A stretch of DNA of 64,000 nucleotides, taken from the NCBI GenBank assembly GCA_017516445.1, contig JAFXCZ010000013.1, forward strand, positions 210,416-274,415, written 5' to 3'. The position numbers and the translations under genes are program-made. Position 1 is the stretch's first letter, and each line of letters opens with the position of its first letter. Under the pieces are notes generated by a model. That model was not told where the DNA came from. It saw only the letters and a list, made by a program, of their open reading frames with translations, and ran no database searches. Of the stretch, positions 25,494 through 55,506 are shown piece by piece. This DNA is from Clostridia bacterium (GTDB lineage: Bacteria > Bacillota > Clostridia > Oscillospirales > Acutalibacteraceae).

Positions 25494-25502
25494 ATATTGG
25501 TA

Positions 25503-25666
25503 AGATAGAGGCGCGGTATGTTAATAGTAAGTTTTGGATGCTAATCACGGCGGTGAGAAGCCAAAACCCAAAGGAGCAGCCGCCGAAGAGGGTTGCCGGC
25601 AGGCGCTACTCTGGTAAGACGGAATAATATTCGGCTTACTGTCGCATTTGCGGAGTGCTATCAGCT
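25503..25666 (+). ncRNA. Lysine riboswitch (L-box) aptamer
   Basis: The conserved core is present in order: AGATAGAGGCGCG, a TAGTAAG element, GGTGAGAAGCC, CGCCGAAGAGGGTTGCCGGC, GGCGCTACTCTGGTAAGAC and TTACTGTCGC. The closing 3' strand GCGGAGTGCTATC pairs with the start. When lysine is bound, the downstream hairpin at 25700 should form and stop transcription, so dapA and lysA are repressed by lysine. Confidence 0.95.
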
Positions 25667-25699
25667 TTGGGAACGCTATATTGTTTTCTTAATGTTTGG

Positions 25700-45934: not shown

Positions 45935-46999
45935 CTATTTTATTGGATATGTCCAACCGAATGTATCTTCAAGCTTACCCCACTGGATACCTGTTAAGGT
46001 ATCGTAAAGCATTTGGGTAACCTCACCGATTTCACCATTGTTTACAGGGTATTTAACACCCTTGTAGCAAAGCTCACCTATAGGAGAAACAACAGCCGCT
46101 GTGCCGCAGCCCCAAGCTTCTTCAAGCTTGCCGTTCTCTAAAGCGTCTGCCAGCTCGTCAATGCTTAAAAGACGTTCTTCTACATCATAGCCCTTTTCTT
46201 TAAGCACTGCAATACATGACATACGGGTAATACCGGGTAAAATTGAGCCGGAAAGCATAGGCGTTACGATTTTGCCGTCAATTTTGAACATTACGTTCAT
46301 AGCGCCAACTTCTTCGATATACTTACGTTCTACACCGTCAAGCCATAATACCTGTGAATAGCCCTGCTTAGCCGCACGCTCACCTGCACGGTTAGAAGCG
46401 GCATAGTTACCGCCACATTTAGCGTAACCTGTACCGCCGCGTACTGCACGAACGTCCTCGTCCTCAATCATAATTCTAACAGGGTTAATACCCTCTGCAT
46501 AATAACTTCCAACAGGGGAAGCAATTATTACATAAGTAGCATTATGAACAGCGTGAACGCCTAATGACTCGTCATTGCCGAACATAAAGGGACGAAGATA
46601 GAGCGATGTGCCTTCTGCAGAAGGTGTCCAATCCTGCTCAAGCTCGACAAACTTTTCAAGCACCTCTAAAGCCATATCTTCGGGAATTTCGGGAAGGCAT
46701 AAACGCTCAGCCGAGCGGTTCATTCTTCTGATATTCTCAATCGGGCGGAACAACTGCACCTTGCCGTCTTTACGGCGGTAAGCCTTTAAGCCCTCGAAAA
46801 TTTCACTGCCGTAATGCAAAACAGTTGATGCGGGGTGGATTGAAAGATTCTCAAAAGGAACTATGCGGGCATTGTACCAGCCCTTTTCGCTGTTCCAATC
46901 CATCATAAACATATGGTCAGTGAAAATTTTACCGAAGCCTAATGTACTGCTATCAGGCTTTTCCTTTAAAGCGGAAGCCTTTGTGATTTTTATTTCCAT
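45935..46999 (-). CDS. ilvE: Branched-chain amino acid aminotransferase
   Basis: IlvE exchanges the amino group between glutamate and the 2-oxoacids of valine, isoleucine and leucine using PLP. The 354-residue fold-IV enzyme shows HYGSEIFEGLKAYR, the PLP lysine in GYAKCGGNYAAS, the EEVGAMNVMF motif and SGSILPGITR. Its length fits the longer (type II) group. It is the last gene of a unit that starts with an acyl-CoA synthetase and contains a ferredoxin-dependent 2-oxoacid oxidoreductase, 11 bases after the gamma subunit gene. Transcription should depend on the valine-type T-box at 52.6-52.9 kb. No ilvBCD genes are present nearby. Confidence 0.95.
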   Translation of the reverse strand: MEIKITKASALKEKPDSSTLGFGKIFTDHMFMMDWNSEKGWYNARIVPFENLSIHPASTVLHYGSEIFEGLKAYRRKDGKVQLFRPIENIRRMNRSAERLCLPEIPEDMALEVLEKFVELEQDWTPSAEGTSLYLRPFMFGNDESLGVHAVHNATYVIIASPVGSYYAEGINPVRIMIEDEDVRAVRGGTGYAKCGGNYAASNRAGERAAKQGYSQVLWLDGVERKYIEEVGAMNVMFKIDGKIVTPMLSGSILPGITRMSCIAVLKEKGYDVEERLLSIDELADALENGKLEEAWGCGTAAVVSPIGELCYKGVKYPVNNGEIGEVTQMLYDTLTGIQWGKLEDTFGWTYPIK

Positions 47000-47010
47000 A
47001 ATAACATCTC

Positions 47011-47544
47011 CTAATTATTAGCACCGATACTCATTGCTTTTTTGTTGATTTCAAGCATATCAGCACGTTTAGCAGAAATAACCTTTGAGAGTGCGGCGTT
47101 AACAGTTTCCTCATTATAACCGCCAAGCTCTTTTAAAATCTTACCAACAATAATCATATTAGCCAAGGTAGGCATACCGTTGTCGCTTGCAAGACGTGTT
47201 GCAGGAATATAATGAACGGTAACGTCGTCTCTCTTAACCTTGCGTTCAATTAAAGCTGAATCTACAAAAATTGTACCGCCCGAAACAACGCTGTCTTCAT
47301 ATTTGTCAAGTGACGGAAGATTCATAGCAACCAAAACATCAGGCTTAGAAACGATAGGTGAGCCTACGGGAGTATCACTTAAAATAACACTGCAGCTTGC
47401 GGTACCGCCGCGCATTTCGGGGCCGTAGGACGGAAGCCAGCTTACCTGTTTATCCTCGGTAAGTCCCTTATAAGCCAAGAATTTACCCGAAAAGAGTATA
47501 CCCTGACCGCCAAAGCCTGCAAATAAATACTGTGTAGTAGCCAT
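47011..47544 (-). CDS. 2-oxoacid:ferredoxin oxidoreductase, gamma subunit
   Basis: This 177-residue subunit belongs to the POR/VOR/KOR gamma family. The opening [19 protein letters not shown] and [18 protein letters not shown] are diagnostic. The gamma subunit helps bind CoA and closes the heterotetramer. It starts on the last base of the beta subunit stop. The order delta-alpha-beta-gamma followed by ilvE indicates a branched-chain oxoacid enzyme (VOR type). Confidence 0.93.
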
Positions 47545-48293
47545 TATTCTGCCTCCTTTGCGCTACGGTCCTTATAAACACCTAAGGGATAATAAGGAAT
47601 CATCTTTTCGTCTATCCATTCGAGCGCTTTTTTGGGAGTAAGTCCCCAGTTAGTAGGACAGCTTGAAATAACCTCAACAAGAGAGAAGCCCTTGCCGTCT
47701 ATCTGATTCTGGAATGCCTTTTTAATAGCCTTTTTAGCATTTTTAACATTCTTTACATTGTTAACAGCTACACGCTCTAAATACTCGGCGCCGTCAACCT
47801 CAGAGAGCATTTCGCAAACCTTAATCGGAAAACCGCAATGGTCGGTATCTCTGCCGTAAGGTGAAGTCTGGGTAATCTGACCGGGGAGAGATGTAGGAGC
47901 CATCTGACCGCCTGTCATACCGTAAATTGCGTTATTGATAAAGATGATTGTGATATTTTCGTTTCTAGCAGCAGCGTGCACAGTTTCAGCCATACCGATT
48001 GATGCTAAGTCGCCATCACCCTGATATGTAAATACAATATTTTCGGGGAGGGCGCGTTTAACACCTGTAGCAACAGCAGGTGCTCTACCGTGAGCCGCCT
48101 CAATCATATCACAGTTAAAATAGTTATAAGCCATAACCGAGCAACCAACAGGTGCAATACCTACAGTTTTACCCTCTATGCCTAATTCATCCATAACCTC
48201 GGCAACAAGGCGGTGTACTATACCATGGGTACAGCCGGGGCAGTAATGAAGCGGTACATCGGTTAATGCGTGGGGTTTTTCAAAAACTACCAT
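47544..48293 (-). CDS. 2-oxoacid:ferredoxin oxidoreductase, beta (TPP-binding) subunit
   Basis: This 249-residue thiamine-diphosphate subunit has the N-terminal YCPGCTHGIVHRL, which holds a cluster-related cysteine pair. The TPP motif GDGDLASIGMAETVHAA ends in INNAIYGMTGGQ. It is shorter than pyruvate:ferredoxin beta subunits and matches the VOR/KOR group. The reaction, 2-oxoacid + CoA + oxidised ferredoxin to acyl-CoA + CO2, is reversible with low-potential ferredoxin. It overlaps its neighbours by one base on each side. Confidence 0.93.
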   Translation of the reverse strand: MVVFEKPHALTDVPLHYCPGCTHGIVHRLVAEVMDELGIEGKTVGIAPVGCSVMAYNYFNCDMIEAAHGRAPAVATGVKRALPENIVFTYQGDGDLASIGMAETVHAAARNENITIIFINNAIYGMTGGQMAPTSLPGQITQTSPYGRDTDHCGFPIKVCEMLSEVDGAEYLERVAVNNVKNVKNAKKAIKKAFQNQIDGKGFSLVEVISSCPTNWGLTPKKALEWIDEKMIPYYPLGVYKDRSAKEAE

Positions 48294-49354
48294 TATTTGT
48301 TACCTCCGTTTGCTTTTTCTATAGCGGCAAGTACCTCTTCTGGTGACGGAATCATACCGCCAACACGGTTGCAAAGTACATATTCACCGCTGCATTTGGT
48401 AGCAAGCTTAACATCGTCAATCATCTGACCCATTGAAAGCTCTACTGAAATATAAGTTTTAATCTTGCCGATTGTCTTTTCAAACGGCTTATTGGGGAAC
48501 GGCCACAGGGTGATAGGTCTAATCATACCAACCTTTATACCCTTTTTACGAGCTTCAACAATAGCGTTTTTAGCAACACGTGAAGCAATACCAAAAGCGG
48601 TGATGCAAATTTCTGCATCGTCCATCATATATTCTTCATACATAGCTTCGTTTTCTTCTATGTACTTATAACGCTCAAAGCGCTCGTTGTTTGATTTTTC
48701 AAGCTCGTCAGGCTGTAAGAAAAGTGAGTTTACGATATTATGCTCTCTCTCCATCTTAGTGCCTGTGGTAGCCCAAGGCTTTTCGGGTGCCTTTGCAATT
48801 TCATAATCTAAGGATACGGGCTCCATCATCTGTCCCATAGTACCGTCTGCCAAAATCATAGATGTCATACGGTATTTATCAGCAAGCTCAAAGCCCTTTA
48901 CAGTAAGGTCAGCCATTTCCTGAACAGAAGCGGGTGCTAAAACTAGCATTCTAAAGTCACCGTGACCGCCAGCCTTTGTAGCTTGATAATAGTCAGACTG
49001 TGAGGGCTGAATACCGCCAAGGCCCGGACCGCCTCTTTGTACATTGATTACAAGTGACGGTAAATCCGCACCTGCAAGGTACGAAAGTCCCTCACCCTTT
49101 AAGGATATACCAGGGCTTGAAGACGAGGTCATAACTCTATAACCTGTAGAAGCCACGCCGTAAACCATATTTATTGCGGCAACTTCACTTTCAGCCTGTA
49201 AAAAGCAACCGCCGATTTTGGGCATTCTCTTTGCCATATAAGCGGCAATCTCAGTCTGAGGGGTAATAGGATAACCGAAGTAATGACGGCAGCCTGCAAT
49301 AATAGCGGCTTCGGCAATAGCTTCGTTACCTTTCATTAAAACTTTATCTGCCAT
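48293..49354 (-). CDS. vorB: 2-oxoacid:ferredoxin oxidoreductase, alpha subunit (VorB-like)
   Basis: This 353-residue alpha subunit has the TPP-contact motif GYPITPQTEIAAYM. ESEVAAINMVYGVASTGYRV, the TSSSSPGISLKGEG turn and GIQPSQSDYYQATK are also present. The length and sequence are most like 3-methyl-2-oxobutanoate:ferredoxin oxidoreductase VorB. Substrate assignment to branched oxoacids is supported by ilvE in the same unit and the BCAA-type T-box upstream, not by active-site proof. A 10-base gap separates it from the ferredoxin-like delta subunit gene. Confidence 0.88.
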   Translation of the reverse strand: MADKVLMKGNEAIAEAAIIAGCRHYFGYPITPQTEIAAYMAKRMPKIGGCFLQAESEVAAINMVYGVASTGYRVMTSSSSPGISLKGEGLSYLAGADLPSLVINVQRGGPGLGGIQPSQSDYYQATKAGGHGDFRMLVLAPASVQEMADLTVKGFELADKYRMTSMILADGTMGQMMEPVSLDYEIAKAPEKPWATTGTKMEREHNIVNSLFLQPDELEKSNNERFERYKYIEENEAMYEEYMMDDAEICITAFGIASRVAKNAIVEARKKGIKVGMIRPITLWPFPNKPFEKTIGKIKTYISVELSMGQMIDDVKLATKCSGEYVLCNRVGGMIPSPEEVLAAIEKANGGNK

Positions 49355-49364
49355 TTTTAACTTC

Positions 49365-49571
49365 CTACCTTTCTACTGTAATTATACAATCCGGACACAT
49401 AGTAGCACAGAATGCACAAGCAATGCAGTCGTCGGGATTTACTGCTTCTACGGGGTGGTGTCCCTTAGCGTTGATTTTATCAGCACTTAGAGCCAAAACT
49501 TTCTTAGGGCATACATCTACACAAAGACCACAGCCCTTGCATTTGTCTGTTTTAAAGGTTAATTTTGCCAT
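49365..49571 (-). CDS. 2-oxoacid:ferredoxin oxidoreductase, delta (2x[4Fe-4S]) subunit
   Basis: This 68-residue ferredoxin-like protein has two cluster motifs, CKGCGLCVDVCP and CIACAFCATMCPDC, typical of the electron-transfer subunit of VOR/KOR enzymes. It starts 13 bases after the P-loop ATPase gene and precedes the alpha subunit. It should pass electrons between the TPP subunit and free ferredoxin. Confidence 0.93.
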   Translation of the reverse strand: MAKLTFKTDKCKGCGLCVDVCPKKVLALSADKINAKGHHPVEAVNPDDCIACAFCATMCPDCIITVER

Positions 49572-49584
49572 TTTTTACACTCCT

Positions 49585-50247
49585 TTAATTAATCTTACTC
49601 TGTAAATTAAGAGGAAATACATCTTTGATTTTTGATTTTACGCTCTCATAAATTTCACCGTAAACACAGGTGCATTTTATGGGAAGTCCCGTAATTTTTG
49701 ATACCTCATTTGCATAAGGCACCGAATTTATAACATCCTCCGCCGTGGTTTCATTACCAAGGTTAGAGTTATTAACAATAGCAGTGAATTTGCACTTACA
49801 CGCCTGCTCAATCTCACGCATAACCTCAAGTGTAGACTCGGCGTCACGTGTTAAGGGACGGTAGCAGTTGATTACAAAAAGCATTTCGTAATCATTTTCC
49901 TCCATAATAGCGGGCGCAATGCGACCTAGCGCCAAAGCGCCGCGGTCATCACCGCCAACGTCTATTACAGCGTGCAAATTCTTATTGTCGGTTATCATAT
50001 ACATTTGCTGCGGCATTGCAGGGATATCAACATTTGTACCCGCATACTCGGACGAGATAAGAGTTATTCCTCTCTGCTCTAGGTCATCCTTACTGTCCTT
50101 AGTGCGAAAATATGGATTTACGATATCCAAATCGGCAATAACAACATCGCTGTACTGACTTTTAAGATCATACGCCATATTTACAGCAACGTTTGTTTTG
50201 CCGCTTCCGTAATGGCCGCACAAAAGTGTTACTCTTTTATATATCAT
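49585..50247 (-). CDS. P-loop ATPase (MinD/CobQ-like) inside the VOR operon
   Basis: This 220-residue protein has a Walker A motif LLCGHYGSGKTNVAVN at about residues 8-23. VVIADLDIVNPYFRTKD follows, as in SIMIBI-class ATPases of the MinD/ParA/CooC type, and the later VIDVGGDDRGA corresponds to the Walker B region. It overlaps the acyl-CoA synthetase gene by four bases and precedes the VOR delta subunit. CooC-like relatives assist metal-centre maturation, so a role in activating the oxidoreductase is possible, but no direct evidence exists here. Confidence 0.75.
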   Translation of the reverse strand: MIYKRVTLLCGHYGSGKTNVAVNMAYDLKSQYSDVVIADLDIVNPYFRTKDSKDDLEQRGITLISSEYAGTNVDIPAMPQQMYMITDNKNLHAVIDVGGDDRGALALGRIAPAIMEENDYEMLFVINCYRPLTRDAESTLEVMREIEQACKCKFTAIVNNSNLGNETTAEDVINSVPYANEVSKITGLPIKCTCVYGEIYESVKSKIKDVFPLNLQSKIN

Positions 50248-52538
50248 AATTTATTTCTCTGGATTTTACCGCTTGTAGTCTTAGGTAAGCTATCACGGAA
50301 TTCCACAATTCGCGGATACTTATAAGGTGCGGTTCTTTCCTTAACATAGGTTTGGATTTGCTTTTTAAGTTCTTCTGTAGGCTCGGTGCCATTTACCAGC
50401 ACAATGCTTGCCTTTACAACCTGACCGCGAACCTCATCGGGAGCGGCAGAAACACCACATTCTAAAACGTAAGGAAGCTCCATAATAACGCTCTCAATTT
50501 CAAACGGTCCTATGCGGTAGCCCGAAGACTTGATAACGTCATCAATTCTGCCAACATACCAATAAAAGCCGTCCTCATCGCACCAAGCGGTATCGCCTGT
50601 GTGGTAGTATTTCTCTCCCCAGGTTTCACGGGTTTTCTCCTCGTCACCATAGTAGCCAATAGCAAGACCGCAGGGTGTGCCGTTACTGATATCAATAACA
50701 ATTTCGCCTGTTTCACCCACTGGGACATCATTGCCGTCGGGGTCAACAATATGAACATCGTAAATAGGCGCCGGCTTACCCATTGAGCCGATTTTATGAG
50801 GAGCGCCTATCATATTACCGATTATCATTGTACTTTCGGTCTGACCAAAGCCTTCCAAAATCTGAAGACCTGTAATCTTTTCAAATTGACGGTAAACTTC
50901 AGGGTTTAATGCTTCGCCCGCAGTAGTCATATGCTTAACCGAAGATAAATCATATTTCGAAATATCCTGTTTGATAAGCATACGAAGCATTGTAGGCGGT
51001 GCGCAGAAGGTTGTAATGCCGTATTTGTGGAACATCGGCAAAATATCTGCCGCATCAAAACGGTCAAAGTCGTAAACAAAAATTGCCGCCTCTGCCAACC
51101 ATTGTCCGTAAAGCTTACCCCACATAGCCTTTGCCCAGCCTGTATCGGAAATGGTGAAATGAAGTCCCTCAGGGTCAACATCGTGCCAATACTTAGCTGT
51201 GTGGAAGTGGCCTAACGGATATTTATATGTATGGGTTGCAATCTTAGGATATCCGCTTGTACCCGAAGTGAAGTACATAAGCATTAAATCATCACCGCAG
51301 GGTGAATCTTCAGTACGCTTAAAGTGGGTTGAATAAAGTGGGTATTCGCTGTCAAAATCACGCCAACCGTCACGCTTACCATTAACTATAAGCTTATGCT
51401 TTAAGCAATCGCACTTTTGAGCGGCTAAATCAACCTGAGCGGCAGTGTCGCCATCGGCAGTACAAACAATAGCCGTAACACCCGCCGATTTAAAGCGGTA
51501 TTCAAAATCGTGCTCTTGAAGCTGGTTAGTAGCAGGAATAACAACCGCACCAAGCTTATTAAGAGCCATCATACAATACCAGAACTGATAGTGCCTTTTA
51601 AGAACAAGCATTACCCTGTCGCCCTTTTTAATACCTAAAGACTTAAAATAGTTAGCGCACTGATTTGAAGCCTTTTTAATATCCTTAAAGGTAAGGCGAC
51701 GTTCGGTGCCGTCCTTAGAAATATGTAGCATTGCTAATTTCTCAGGCTCTTTTTCAGCCAGAGCATCTACCAAATCGTAAGCAAAGTTAAACCCTTCGGT
51801 ATTCTTAAAGGTAATCGAAAGGGGTGTGCCCTTGTCATTCTCAACTATATCAATATACTTGCTGTAAATACGCTCCTTACGGTCTTTGCGGACACGGGTT
51901 GAAATCTTACCGTCAACCGTTTTGTCGGGCTCCAATTCAGGAATAGGCTCACCCGTAGGATTAAGAACAATAGCATAGAAAGTGCAATCCTCGCCGCCAA
52001 CAGCAATCATACCGTGAGGTGTGTTAGAGTCAAAATAAATACTGTCCCCAGGTCCTAATACCTCGCTGTGATTACCTATTTGAACCTTTAAATGACCTGA
52101 AATGATGAGGTCGCATTCCTGACCCGAGTGGGTAGTACATTCAATAGGTTTATTCTGAAGCTCCTCACTGTATACGCTCTTAACATAAAGCGGCTCGGCA
52201 ATTCTGTTCTTAAAGGCAGAAGCCAAATTATAATAGGTCATACCGTGTGCTTTTTCAATACGCTGACCTTCGCCGCGACGTGTTACCGTAAAGGATTTAA
52301 GCTTAGGACTATAACCCTCAATAATATCAGTAACATCAACATTGAAAGCATTGGCACAACGGTAAATAAAGGCAAAGTGTAAATCACTCTCACCCTTTTC
52401 GCAAGCAAGATATTCCTCCTCGCTTACACCCGTTTTTTCTGCCATTACAGCAACTGATAAATTTTCAATTTCACGCAGTTCCTTAATACGTCCTGCTATT
52501 TCCTTGATTTTAAAATCAAGCTCCTTAATCTGTTCCAT
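50244..52538 (-). CDS. XRE-cupin-acyl-CoA synthetase fusion, valine T-box unit
   Basis: 764 residues in three parts. Residues ~15-70 are an XRE-type helix-turn-helix (IKELREIENLSVAVMAEKTG). Residues ~75-195 are a cupin with THSGQECDLIISGHLKVQIG and GDSIYFDSNTPHGM. Residues ~240-764 are an AMP-forming acyl-CoA synthetase of the medium-chain type, with MYFTSGTSGYPKIATH, EGFGQTES, YHTGDTAW, GRIDDVIKSSGYRIGPFEIE and the terminal lysine motif TTSGKIQRNKL. XRE-cupin proteins are normally stand-alone repressors, so this joins a sensor/DNA-binder to the enzyme. It is preceded by a T-box with Val specifier. It is predicted to activate isobutyrate. Confidence 0.88.
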   Translation of the reverse strand: MEQIKELDFKIKEIAGRIKELREIENLSVAVMAEKTGVSEEEYLACEKGESDLHFAFIYRCANAFNVDVTDIIEGYSPKLKSFTVTRRGEGQRIEKAHGMTYYNLASAFKNRIAEPLYVKSVYSEELQNKPIECTTHSGQECDLIISGHLKVQIGNHSEVLGPGDSIYFDSNTPHGMIAVGGEDCTFYAIVLNPTGEPIPELEPDKTVDGKISTRVRKDRKERIYSKYIDIVENDKGTPLSITFKNTEGFNFAYDLVDALAEKEPEKLAMLHISKDGTERRLTFKDIKKASNQCANYFKSLGIKKGDRVMLVLKRHYQFWYCMMALNKLGAVVIPATNQLQEHDFEYRFKSAGVTAIVCTADGDTAAQVDLAAQKCDCLKHKLIVNGKRDGWRDFDSEYPLYSTHFKRTEDSPCGDDLMLMYFTSGTSGYPKIATHTYKYPLGHFHTAKYWHDVDPEGLHFTISDTGWAKAMWGKLYGQWLAEAAIFVYDFDRFDAADILPMFHKYGITTFCAPPTMLRMLIKQDISKYDLSSVKHMTTAGEALNPEVYRQFEKITGLQILEGFGQTESTMIIGNMIGAPHKIGSMGKPAPIYDVHIVDPDGNDVPVGETGEIVIDISNGTPCGLAIGYYGDEEKTRETWGEKYYHTGDTAWCDEDGFYWYVGRIDDVIKSSGYRIGPFEIESVIMELPYVLECGVSAAPDEVRGQVVKASIVLVNGTEPTEELKKQIQTYVKERTAPYKYPRIVEFRDSLPKTTSGKIQRNKL

Positions 52539-52571
52539 GATTTTCCTCCGTCAACCTCTTTTAATAGAGCT

Positions 52572-52856
52572 TAGTGGGACGAAATAACAAAACCCGTCCC
52601 AAAGTTATGACTTTGAGACGAGCATTGATTTATAATCTATACCCGCGGTACCACTCAAATTGCGGTTTTATCCGCCACTCTTGGAATCAAACAATCCCTA
52701 TGCCTTTACGCAGCAATCACGAAGGGGTTCTACTGACTTTCGCTTTCTTCCCCTTTGCTCAGAAGTTACAACGTAAAACCCGCATAAATGACTCGCACCG
52801 ACCGTCACTTCTCTGATACACGAAAAATTACGCACTCTTCGTCAAAGCTTTTTAAC
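52572..52856 (-). ncRNA. T-box leader, valine-type (specifier GUA)
   Basis: On the minus strand, a Stem I region begins near AAGCTTTGACGAAGAG and carries the distal GGTCGGTGCGAG element. The specifier-loop strand is followed by CTTCTGAGCAAAG. With the same register as glyQS leaders, one base separates the specifier from this helix, giving GUA at 52769-52767. The antiterminator box AATTTGAGTGGTACCGCGG is at 52663-52643; its UGGU pairs with an ACCA acceptor end, as expected for tRNA-Val. The terminator hairpin (CTCAAAG/CTTTGGGAC, then TTTTGTTATTT) is at about 52621-52585. Uncharged tRNA should allow readthrough. Confidence 0.9.
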
Positions 52857-52862
52857 TCATTT

Positions 52863-52891
52863 AGTATATCACAACATTGGAAAATTGTCAA
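52863..52891 (-). promoter_or_regulatory. Promoter of the valine T-box operon
   Basis: TTGACA at 52891-52886 and TATACT at 52868-52863, 17-base spacer, minus strand. It lies within 35 bases of the stop codon of the upstream synthetase gene, so the downstream unit has its own initiation. Confidence 0.8.
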
Positions 52892-52894
52892 TAA

Positions 52895-55162
52895 TTATAA
52901 TTTATTTCTTTGTATTTTTCCACTGATTGTTTTGGGCAGCTCATCGCGGAAAACAATCACACGCGGATACTTGTAAGGCGCTGTATGGGTTTTAACATAG
53001 TTCTGAATCTCTTTTTTAAGCTCTTCAGTACCCTCAGTCCCCTTAGTAAGCACAATGCTTGCCTTTACAACCTGACCGCGAACCTCGTCCGGAGCGGCAG
53101 AAACACCGCACTCGAGAACATAGGGCAATTCCATTATAACACTTTCGATTTCAAACGGTCCTATACGGTAGCCCGAAGACTTAATAACGTCATCTATACG
53201 GCTTACATACCAGAAATAACCGTCCTCATCACGCCAAGCGGTATCGCCTGTATGGTACATATCGTCATACCAAGCTTCATTAGTCTTTTCTTGGTCGCGG
53301 TAATATTCATTAAACAATCCGCAAGGAACGCCGTCCTTTGTTCTTATAACAATTTCTCCAACCTCGCCGTCTGCTACCGAGTTTCCGTCAAGGTCAACTA
53401 TATCCACATCATACTGTGGAGAAGCCTTACCCATAGCACCAATCTTAGGCACTGTACCCCAAAGGTTTGCTATTGTAAGGGTGGTTTCGGTCTGACCGAA
53501 GCCCTCCATTATCTGAAGGCCTGTAGCCTCCTCGAACTGACGGAAAACTTCGGGATTGAGCGCTTCGCCCGCGGTAGTCATATGATGAATTGAAGACAAA
53601 TCAAACTTAGAAAGGTCACTCTTTACAAGCATACGGAGCATTGTAGGCGGTGCACAGAATGTGGTTATATTGTACTTTGCAAACATAGGCAAAATATCAT
53701 CCGCATCAAATTTATCAAAGTCGTAAACGAACACCGCGCCCTCACACAGCCACTGACCGTAAAGCTTACCCCAAAGTGATTTACCCCAGCCTGTATCGGA
53801 GATTGTAAGGTGCAAGCCGTCACGCTCGCAGCAGTGCCAGTACTTAGCGGTAACAAAATGACCTAAAGCGTAAGTATGCTTATGAGCCGCCATTTTAGGA
53901 TTACCTGTTGTACCCGAGGTAAAGAACATGAGCGCATTTTCGTCACCCGCAGAAGCATCTTCGGGACGGTCAAATTTACCTGAAAACAGCTTATATTCGT
54001 TATCAAAATCGCGCCAACCGTCACGCTTGCCGCCAACCATAATAAGCTCTTTAACGCAGTCACAATTCTTTGCGGCACGCTGTGCTATTTCAGCAGTATC
54101 GCCGTCAGCCGTACAGATTATAGCGCTAACACCTGCAGCATTGTATCTGTACTCAAAATCGTGCTCCTTGAGCTGATTTGTAGCAGGGATTGCCACCGCA
54201 CCGATTTTATGAAGTGCTACCATACTGAACCAGAACTGATAATGGCGTTTAAGCACAAGCATTACCCTATCACCACGCTTTATACCCAAGGATGTAAAGT
54301 AATTAGCACACTGGTTTGAAGCACGTTTAATATCCTTAAAGGTAAAACGGCGTTCGGTTTTGTTTTTATCAATATGAAGCATAGCAAGCTTTTCTGGGTA
54401 TTTATCTGCTATACCGTCAACAACGTCAAAGCCAAAGTTGAAAACATCGGTATTTTTAAACTTAATATCCTGTAATGCGCCGTTTTCATCCTCCACAGTT
54501 TCAACAAACTTTTCGCAAACAAGCTTTTCGGAAGCCTTTGCCGATGCAATACTGCGGCGAACAGTTTCTTCCTTTACCTCTTCTCCTGGGAGAACTACCG
54601 CACAGAAAACGCAGTCCTCACCCTCAACCGCTATCATACCGTGGGGCACTGAGGAATTATAATAAATGCTGTCACCCTCATGCAAAATTTCGGTATGCTC
54701 ACCTACTTGCACCTTTAACGAGCCGCTCAACACATAGTCAAACTCCTGTCCGGAGTGGGTAGAAAGGTGTATAGGCTTATTCTGCTGCGAAGCCGAATAT
54801 TCATAGCGTACAAAATAAGGCTCTGCAATCTTGTCACGGAACTTAGGTGCTAAATTGGTAATATCAATTCCGTCTTCCTTAGCGGTTTTTTGTCCTTTAC
54901 CCTTACGGGTAACAGTATAGGTAGAAAGCTTTGCTGTTCTGCCCTCTAAAAGCTCGGTCATTTCAACATCAAACGCTACAGCGCATTTGTGAATAAATGA
55001 AAAGGGAATATCAGCATTTGCGCTCTCGAATGTAATATATTTTTCTTCGCTCACTTCGGTCTTCTCTGCCATCTCAGCTACAGTCCAACCCATAATTTCG
55101 CGTAACTCCTTTATTCGAGACGCAATCTCCATTAACTGTTCTTTTGCGGTGTTGGTAGTCAT
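52895..55162 (-). CDS. XRE-cupin-acyl-CoA synthetase fusion, isoleucine T-box unit
   Basis: 755 residues, a paralogue of the 50.2-52.5 kb protein with the same order: helix-turn-helix ~10-65 (IKELREIMGWTVAEMAEKTE), cupin ~70-190 (THSGQEFDYVLSGSLKVQVG, GDSIYYNSSVPHGM) and synthetase ~230-755. The synthetase has FFTSGTTGNPKMAAH, EGFGQTET, YHTGDTAW, SRIDDVIKSSGYRIGPFEIE and SGKIQRNKL. The C-terminal 100 residues of the two are nearly identical, while the binding-pocket regions differ more. It stands alone behind a T-box whose specifier reads AUC (Ile). It is predicted to activate 2-methylbutyrate, the isoleucine precursor; the substrate is inference. No terminator separates it from the next T-box unit. 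Confidence 0.88.
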   Translation of the reverse strand: MTTNTAKEQLMEIASRIKELREIMGWTVAEMAEKTEVSEEKYITFESANADIPFSFIHKCAVAFDVEMTELLEGRTAKLSTYTVTRKGKGQKTAKEDGIDITNLAPKFRDKIAEPYFVRYEYSASQQNKPIHLSTHSGQEFDYVLSGSLKVQVGEHTEILHEGDSIYYNSSVPHGMIAVEGEDCVFCAVVLPGEEVKEETVRRSIASAKASEKLVCEKFVETVEDENGALQDIKFKNTDVFNFGFDVVDGIADKYPEKLAMLHIDKNKTERRFTFKDIKRASNQCANYFTSLGIKRGDRVMLVLKRHYQFWFSMVALHKIGAVAIPATNQLKEHDFEYRYNAAGVSAIICTADGDTAEIAQRAAKNCDCVKELIMVGGKRDGWRDFDNEYKLFSGKFDRPEDASAGDENALMFFTSGTTGNPKMAAHKHTYALGHFVTAKYWHCCERDGLHLTISDTGWGKSLWGKLYGQWLCEGAVFVYDFDKFDADDILPMFAKYNITTFCAPPTMLRMLVKSDLSKFDLSSIHHMTTAGEALNPEVFRQFEEATGLQIMEGFGQTETTLTIANLWGTVPKIGAMGKASPQYDVDIVDLDGNSVADGEVGEIVIRTKDGVPCGLFNEYYRDQEKTNEAWYDDMYHTGDTAWRDEDGYFWYVSRIDDVIKSSGYRIGPFEIESVIMELPYVLECGVSAAPDEVRGQVVKASIVLTKGTEGTEELKKEIQNYVKTHTAPYKYPRVIVFRDELPKTISGKIQRNKL

Positions 55163-55199
55163 CTTGGTTACTCCCTTTCATTTAATAATTTTCAAAATA

Positions 55200-55463
55200 A
55201 AAAACACCCATCTCAAACTTCTTTGAGACGGGTGATAATAAACACTCGCGGTACCACTCAAATTGCAGTAAAACTGCCACTCTTGGAATCCAACAATTCC
55301 TATGCCTTTACGCAGCAATCACGGAAAAGCCTACTGTTATTTCAGCCTTTCAGCTCAGAAGGGATGGGTTATACGGACTCTCGCTATCGGCTCACAGCAA
55401 CCGCCGACTCTCTGAAAACAAGCATTCCAAACCGTCTTCGTCAAAGCTTTTATAATTTGGTTA
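55200..55463 (-). ncRNA. T-box leader, isoleucine-type (specifier AUC)
   Basis: The minus-strand leader begins AAGCTTTGACGAAGACGG, with an AGAGAGTCGGCGG distal element. The specifier-loop strand ends in CCCATCC before CTTCTGAGC, so in the same register as the neighbouring leader the specifier is AUC at 55365-55363. The antiterminator box AATTTGAGTGGTACCGCGAG is at 55266-55244, again with UGGU for a discriminator A. The terminator has 13-base arms CACCCGTCTCAAA and TTTGAGATGGGTG with loop GAAG and a TTTT tail at 55234-55201. Confidence 0.9.
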
Positions 55464-55469
55464 TTGGTT

Positions 55470-55498
55470 ATTATAGCACTCTATTTTTTGTTTGTCAA
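55470..55498 (-). promoter_or_regulatory. Consensus promoter of the isoleucine T-box unit
   Basis: TTGACA at 55498-55493 and TATAAT at 55475-55470 with a 17-base spacer: a perfect match on the minus strand. Confidence 0.88.
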
Positions 55499-55506
55499 CA
55501 ATTTTA

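Follow-up and report, generated by a model that had tools for sequence, protein, structure and literature searches.

A putative T-box-controlled route from branched short-chain acids to valine and isoleucine in an Acutalibacteraceae bacterium

Introduction

In rumen nutrition, many gut bacteria have long been held to need isobutyrate, 2-methylbutyrate and isovalerate, and the reductive carboxylation of such isoacids by rumen anaerobes was reportedly described by Allison, Robinson and Peel between 1966 and 1971. Rumen anaerobes convert isovalerate to leucine, isobutyrate to valine and 2-methylbutyrate to isoleucine by reductive carboxylation (PMC7356843; for this long-known chemistry see also PMC10658910), and the same reaction has been used to explain the 2-methylbutyrate requirement of Methanobrevibacter ruminantium (PMC2812497). 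In Bacillota, synthesis of the branched-chain amino acids (BCAAs) by the ilv-leu operon is under the control of a T-box with a CUC (Leu) specifier (PMC2494555). Here we describe a locus of T-box leaders, acyl-CoA synthetase genes, a 2-oxoacid:ferredoxin oxidoreductase (VOR) and a branched-chain aminotransferase in a stretch of 64,000 nucleotides (“the window”; assembly GCA_017516445.1, contig JAFXCZ010000013.1, forward-strand positions 210,416 to 274,415) from a Clostridia bacterium of the Acutalibacteraceae, order Oscillospirales. Judging from this locus and its relatives, these gut bacteria seem to take up branched acids from their surroundings and to form valine and isoleucine from them by adding CO2.

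Results

Two T-box-led units in the window

The minus strand of the window from 45935 to 55498 holds two transcription units, the Ile unit and the Val unit. The Ile unit consists of a promoter, a T-box with an AUC specifier, a terminator and the synthetase gene ACS1, and the Val unit of a promoter, a T-box with a GUA specifier, a terminator and ACS2, followed by genes for a small P-loop ATPase, the VOR subunits VorD, VorB, VorA and VorC, and the aminotransferase IlvE. Leader 1 (55221..55453, AUC (Ile) at 55363-55365) matched the Rfam T-box model RF00230 with 106.5 bits (E 1.6e-22), which exceeds the gathering score of 93, and leader 2 (52611..52854, GUA (Val) at 52767-52769) matched it with 87.3 bits (E 2.6e-18). 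Both leaders span the full model, positions 1-219, with stem I, the UGGN motif of the T-box, antiterminator and terminator, and the specifiers are the codons in the specifier columns of the Rfam alignment, their coordinates having been counted by hand. Each leader is preceded by a sigma-70-type promoter found by pattern matching, with 17-nt spacing: TTGACA-17-TATAAT at 55470..55498 for the Ile unit (12/12 consensus positions) and TTGACA-17-TATACT at 52863..52891 for the Val unit (11/12). Such matches number 39 in 11 kb against 25.4 expected, and the two leader promoters are among the three strongest. Terminator hairpins with U runs lie at 55205-55234 at the end of leader 1 and 52592-52623 at the end of leader 2, and for either hairpin none of 200 shuffles folded as well. 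The leaders are predicted to respond to uncharged tRNA-Ile and tRNA-Val, respectively.

ACS1 (52895..55162, 755 aa) and ACS2 (50244..52538, 764 aa) were identified by Pfam, NCBIfam and PDB matches as acyl-CoA synthetases with a helix-turn-helix (HTH)-cupin-AMP-binding architecture, and are proposed to be 2-methylbutyrate:CoA and isobutyrate:CoA ligases, respectively. Downstream of ACS2 lie the ATPase (49585..50247, 220 aa), a weak ParA/CbiA match with Pfam scores under the cut-off, and the ferredoxin-like delta subunit VorD (49365..49571, 68 aa), which has two 4Fe-4S motifs and matches Fer4 families (the match coming from its first 55 residues only, and the frame end having been read by hand). 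These are followed by the alpha subunit VorB (48293..49354), the thiamine pyrophosphate (TPP)-binding beta subunit VorA (47544..48293; PF02775), the gamma subunit VorC (47011..47544; PF01558) and IlvE (45935..46999), which is over the equivalog cut-offs of both NF009897 (483 bits, cut-off 307) and TIGR01123 (400.5 bits, cut-off 250). The oxidoreductase has four subunits, which supply the TPP, gamma and 4Fe-4S parts; its alpha subunit exceeds the cut-off of the VorB subfamily model NF005507 (531.6 bits, cut-off 399), VorA, VorC and VorD are all under their own NCBIfam cut-offs, and a specificity for branched-chain 2-oxoacids is putative. The profile and RF00230 matches bore out two claims of the initial annotation, which had been made from the letters of the DNA: that two T-box leaders with BCAA-type specifiers precede two acyl-CoA synthetases, and that the Val unit runs on into a complete VOR-type oxidoreductase and ilvE. 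The ATPase gene and the N-terminal HTH-cupin module of both synthetases were absent from it.

Elsewhere in the window there is a lysine riboswitch (25498-25668, 75.3 bits), and other T-boxes of the same genome (L001, L002 and L118) stand ahead of frames resembling pheS, asnS and ileS, named by eye.

Near-exclusion of the unit and ilvBCD

No match to ilvB, ilvC, ilvD or LeuA was found at the thresholds used in the window's own assembly, which on its own proves little about a missing pathway; since that assembly is only 57% complete, the test rests on relatives. The comparison set comprised 99 genomes, 61 from the same genus and 38 others of the order. The genes ilvC and ilvD were present in an identical 27 of the 99, and ilvB, ilvC and ilvD co-occurred in the same 11 of the 61 same-genus genomes (the ilvB match of G059 being partial, under the cut-off and on another contig). 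The fused synthetase, counted by hand with matches starting beyond residue 198 excluded as unfused relatives, was found in 49 of 50 ilv-lacking versus 2 of 11 ilv-bearing same-genus genomes (Fisher p 3e-8; shared ancestry is ignored in this and the following p values). The corresponding counts were 45/50 versus 2/11 for VorB (Fisher p 5e-6) and 47/50 versus 2/11 for the Leu-type synthetase described below. Among the 35 same-genus genomes with a completeness of 90% or more and a contamination of 5% or less, each of these three genes was present in 28 of 28 ilv-lacking genomes versus 2 of 7 ilv-bearing ones. Outside the genus, fused synthetases of at least 55% identity occurred in 12 of 22 ilv-lacking versus 1 of 16 ilv-bearing genomes (p 0.002), a count that omits four weaker full-length matches with stops (G061, G065, G075 and G081). 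The nearest relative, G013 (95% complete, ACS2 94% identical), has no ilvB, ilvC or ilvD and carries the Leu synthetase as well as the unit. In the genus ilvBCD and the unit are nearly mutually exclusive, and a complete separate ilv pathway beside the unit, which would have spoken against the initial annotation, is not the rule.

Specifier classes track the synthetase clades

Related loci, the best 80 of 581 from a scan of genome contigs and by title many of them from ruminant gut metagenome-assembled genomes (MAGs), were compared with the window. The order T-box, ACS1, T-box, ACS2, ATPase, VorD-VorB-VorA-VorC, IlvE recurs among them: VorB is present in 50 of the 80, all 50 of these have the synthetases and the small P-loop ATPase, and 41 of the 50 have IlvE. 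Eleven of the 30 loci without VorB end within 4.5 kb of ACS2. Where the leader is readable, the T-box core motif lies upstream of 70 of 78 ACS2 and 41 of 46 ACS1 genes.

Specifiers were counted over the window, the 80 related loci and segments of genomes from the same genus, sets that overlap in species, with ACS1 and ACS2 labelled by best tblastn match to the window proteins. Of the 47 T-boxes ahead of ACS1, 46 read ATC (one unparsed), and those before ACS2 read GTA in 54, GTC in 8 and GTG in 1 (63/73; nine unparsed, one misparsed). Before LeuA-like genes, CTC was found in 34 and CTG in 1 of 41 T-boxes (six unparsed), the 41 including that of the canonical ilv-leu operon of G025 (L116). The strict parser misread the specifier of L012 as CCT (GTA by eye), and at least four of the 16 unparsed leaders (1 ACS1, 9 ACS2, 6 LeuA-like) are cut off by the locus end. 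Distinct stem I sequences numbered 46 for ATC, 53 for GTA, 8 for GTC, 1 for GTG, 34 for CTC and 1 for CTG. A midpoint-rooted FastTree tree of 135 sequences divided 52 ACS1 from 83 ACS2 proteins (support 1.0 and 0.62), and the specifier classes track these two clades across the related loci.

Other features of the related loci were also recorded. A NifH-like role of the ATPase in electron delivery was considered and dropped, as the 58 sequences compared share none of its six cysteines throughout (the most widespread one occurs in 47/58). ACS2 relatives occur in records titled Spirochaetaceae or Spirochaetales, with a GTA T-box in L087 and no T-box motif ahead of the gene in L086, and transfer between phyla is possible. 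In some relatives ACS2 is followed by a carbon-nitrogen hydrolase gene, assigned by Pfam in L053 (L053:12295-13080) and by eye in two others (L047:12305-13090; L082:12289-13068).

Families and predicted substrates of ACS1 and ACS2

ACS1 and ACS2 are paralogues with 66% identity, and both carry HTH-like and cupin domains N-terminal to the AMP-binding domain; in ACS1 the AMP-binding, AMP-binding_C and Cupin_2 families are over the Pfam cut-off and HTH_19 is under it. The N-terminus of the synthetases is weakly similar to the regulator 1y9q (E 3e-5), and the HTH-cupin modules could serve in acid sensing or DNA binding. The top NCBIfam model for both proteins is MbcS (NF047394), with 439.4 and 437.1 bits, and by these scores they are relatives of MbcS and not members of the NF047394 equivalog. 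The top PDB match of both is 3etc (618 bits for ACS1 and 620 bits for ACS2, over 520 residues), the next chain for ACS2 reaching 359 bits. Fifteen alignment columns tell ACS1 and ACS2 apart with at least 85% agreement within each group, two of them inside the AMP-binding domain, and the only complete split is Gly460 (52/52 ACS1) versus Ala469 (83/83 ACS2) in the motif DTGW[GA]K, where 3etc has Gly as in ACS1. This position presumably lines the acyl pocket, as in structures of acetyl-CoA synthetase, and if the pocket is smaller in the Val enzyme it would suit isobutyrate, which is one carbon shorter than 2-methylbutyrate.

We take 3etc to be Macs, which is consistent with the text of PMC10455477. 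Sequence comparison assigns a Macs-type adenylate-forming fold and acyl pocket to both synthetases, which carry Trp and Gly at the Macs pocket positions given in PMC10455477 (numbering offset of one, aligned by eye). Macs favours 2-methylbutyrate (PMC10455477), and MbcS is active on 2-methylbutyrate and isobutyrate and poor on isovalerate (PMC10026030). It is from such comparisons that we infer the substrates of ACS1 and ACS2.

A leucine branch in relatives

Relatives carry a third unit, composed of a Leu (CUC) T-box, a LeuA-like gene, an AP_endonuc_2-AMP-binding synthetase fusion and an amidohydrolase gene (L020:16937-21751; L081:16998-21802; and, for its genes, L119:12526-17449); it was not found in the 57% complete assembly of the window. 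The LeuA-like protein has HMGL and LeuA_dimer domains, and each of the 49 full-length examples examined lacks the three catalytic motifs searched for as sequence patterns. The 61 genomes of the genus gave no LeuA above the TIGR00973 cut-off; matches below it (E up to 1e-40) lie close to the ilv genes of ilv-bearing members and occur in a few other genomes. In G041 (L119) the Leu genes form a single stretch with ACS1, ACS2 and VOR, after which comes a leucine-dehydrogenase-like frame (by eye). The initial annotation is amended in two respects: relatives add a leucine branch to the other two, and both routes are present in two genomes, G009 and G057.

Discussion

We consider it very likely that the locus is a biosynthetic system for assimilating isoacids and, as part of the same judgement, that in most members of the genus the unit stands in for acetolactate synthase, ketol-acid reductoisomerase and dihydroxyacid dehydratase. 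When charged tRNA-Ile is low, leader 1 would antiterminate and ACS1 would convert 2-methylbutyrate to 2-methylbutyryl-CoA; when charged tRNA-Val is low, leader 2 would antiterminate and allow expression of VOR, IlvE and ACS2, the last of which would convert isobutyrate to isobutyryl-CoA. Reduced ferredoxin would drive VOR to carboxylate the acyl-CoAs to 2-oxoacids, and IlvE would aminate these to isoleucine and valine. This is the simplest account because of the near-exclusion with ilvBCD and because the specifier classes follow the synthetase clades. The same two results support the reductive, biosynthetic reading of the initial annotation, with flux direction, substrates and antitermination by the two tRNAs still deduced from sequence.

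Several points weigh against this account. The window's own assembly is a MAG of 0.96 Mb, little more than half complete, and shared ancestry is left out of all the p values. Leader 2 falls 5.7 bits short of the RF00230 gathering score, among genes whose leader is readable the T-box motif is missing before 8 of 78 for ACS2 and 5 of 46 for ACS1, and both synthetases are far under the MbcS cut-off of 850 bits. VorB is not beside ACS2 in 19 of the 80 loci despite at least 4.5 kb of downstream sequence, so that a T-box and ACS2 standing by themselves are a genuine variant (seven examples were viewed; the downstream length in L051 is 5.2 kb). In the window VOR is under Val control only, though isoleucine synthesis would need it too. 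Finally, G009 and G057 carry both routes, only one fused synthetase having been found in G057. The tetranucleotide composition of the contigs correlates at 0.947 in G009, where contamination is probably not the source of the dual route, and at 0.871 in G057, where it may be.

VOR enzymes can also work oxidatively, and the locus might be read as a catabolic unit, with valine and isoleucine oxidised to acyl-CoAs by IlvE and VOR and these acyl-CoAs released or recycled by synthetases that run backwards or act on other acids. VOR and IlvE are reversible, and oxidative VOR occurs in amino-acid-fermenting anaerobes, but T-boxes with Ile and Val specifiers turn genes on under shortage, AMP-forming ligases save no energy in reverse, and the near-exclusion would leave genomes without a known source of 2-oxoisovalerate; we therefore hold catabolism to be very unlikely. 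Supply of branched acyl-CoA primers for the branched-chain fatty acids of the membrane, as proposed for Staphylococcus aureus MbcS, is most improbable as the function of the locus. MbcS does support branched fatty acid synthesis (PMC10026030) and is the top model for ACS1 and ACS2, but primer supply would leave unexplained the separate Ile and Val specifiers, the presence of VOR and IlvE within the Val unit and the near-exclusion with ilvBCD; it could be a side use. Both of these readings are put second to the biosynthetic one. Salvage on top of imported amino acids, with the carriers fed mainly on peptides and the unit a minor top-up, would agree with the two genomes that retain both routes. 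We regard it as unlikely, since the synthetases, VorB and the Leu-type synthetase are kept in all 28 good-quality ilv-lacking genomes of the genus, which argues that the unit serves a needed function.

The biosynthetic account may extend to a three-branch isoacid pathway, in which each branch would have its own tRNA (Ile, Val or Leu) and a synthetase tuned to its acid (in the Val enzyme by an acyl pocket with Ala in place of Gly), and which would be the sole source of branched-chain skeletons in most species of the genus. The non-catalytic LeuA relative, with its leucine-binding domain, would then serve the third synthetase as its leucine sensor, and the HTH-cupin modules would sense the Ile and Val branches. 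This fuller scheme is offered tentatively, and we put its chances at somewhat less than even.

The unit offers a concrete, conserved gene set for the isoacid need, with a regulatory clue to its direction, and would make an isoacid requirement predictable from genomes and testable. Surveys of ilv and leu genes alone would put these species down as plain auxotrophs for BCAAs, whereas their actual dependence would be on isoacids, tying them to amino-acid-fermenting neighbours.

Comparison with known systems

A search of the open-licence literature turned up no account of these genes or of their regulation by T-boxes. In the text available of the T-box survey PMC2494555, the main text does not mention ferredoxin, CoA or carboxylation. 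Among solved structures the best match of both synthetases is Macs of Methanosarcina acetivorans (3etc), which lacks the HTH-cupin module and belongs to another organism and context. MbcS of S. aureus, the best NCBIfam model, takes 2-methylbutyrate and isobutyrate, but it has no fused module and serves fatty acid synthesis, and ACS1 and ACS2 score 437-439 bits against its cut-off of 850. M. ruminantium differs in being an archaeon, for which the part of PMC2812497 at hand states only a probable isoleucine route and does not mention a T-box. The T-box ilv-leu operon shares BCAA synthesis under T-box control, but here separate Ile and Val leaders drive synthetases and VOR instead of ilvBCD. An operon of the ilv-leu kind is found in the same genus in G025, with a Leu T-box, a LeuA relative and frames like ilvB, ilvN, ilvC, ilvD, leuC, leuD and leuB (ilvB, ilvC and ilvD by search, the remainder named by eye). 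The reductive carboxylation of rumen anaerobes has the chemistry proposed here; the portion of PMC7356843 at hand gives no gene set or regulation for it, whereas the present locus has dedicated genes and tRNA-specific leaders. The chemistry is known, and the genetic and regulatory arrangement appears to be new.

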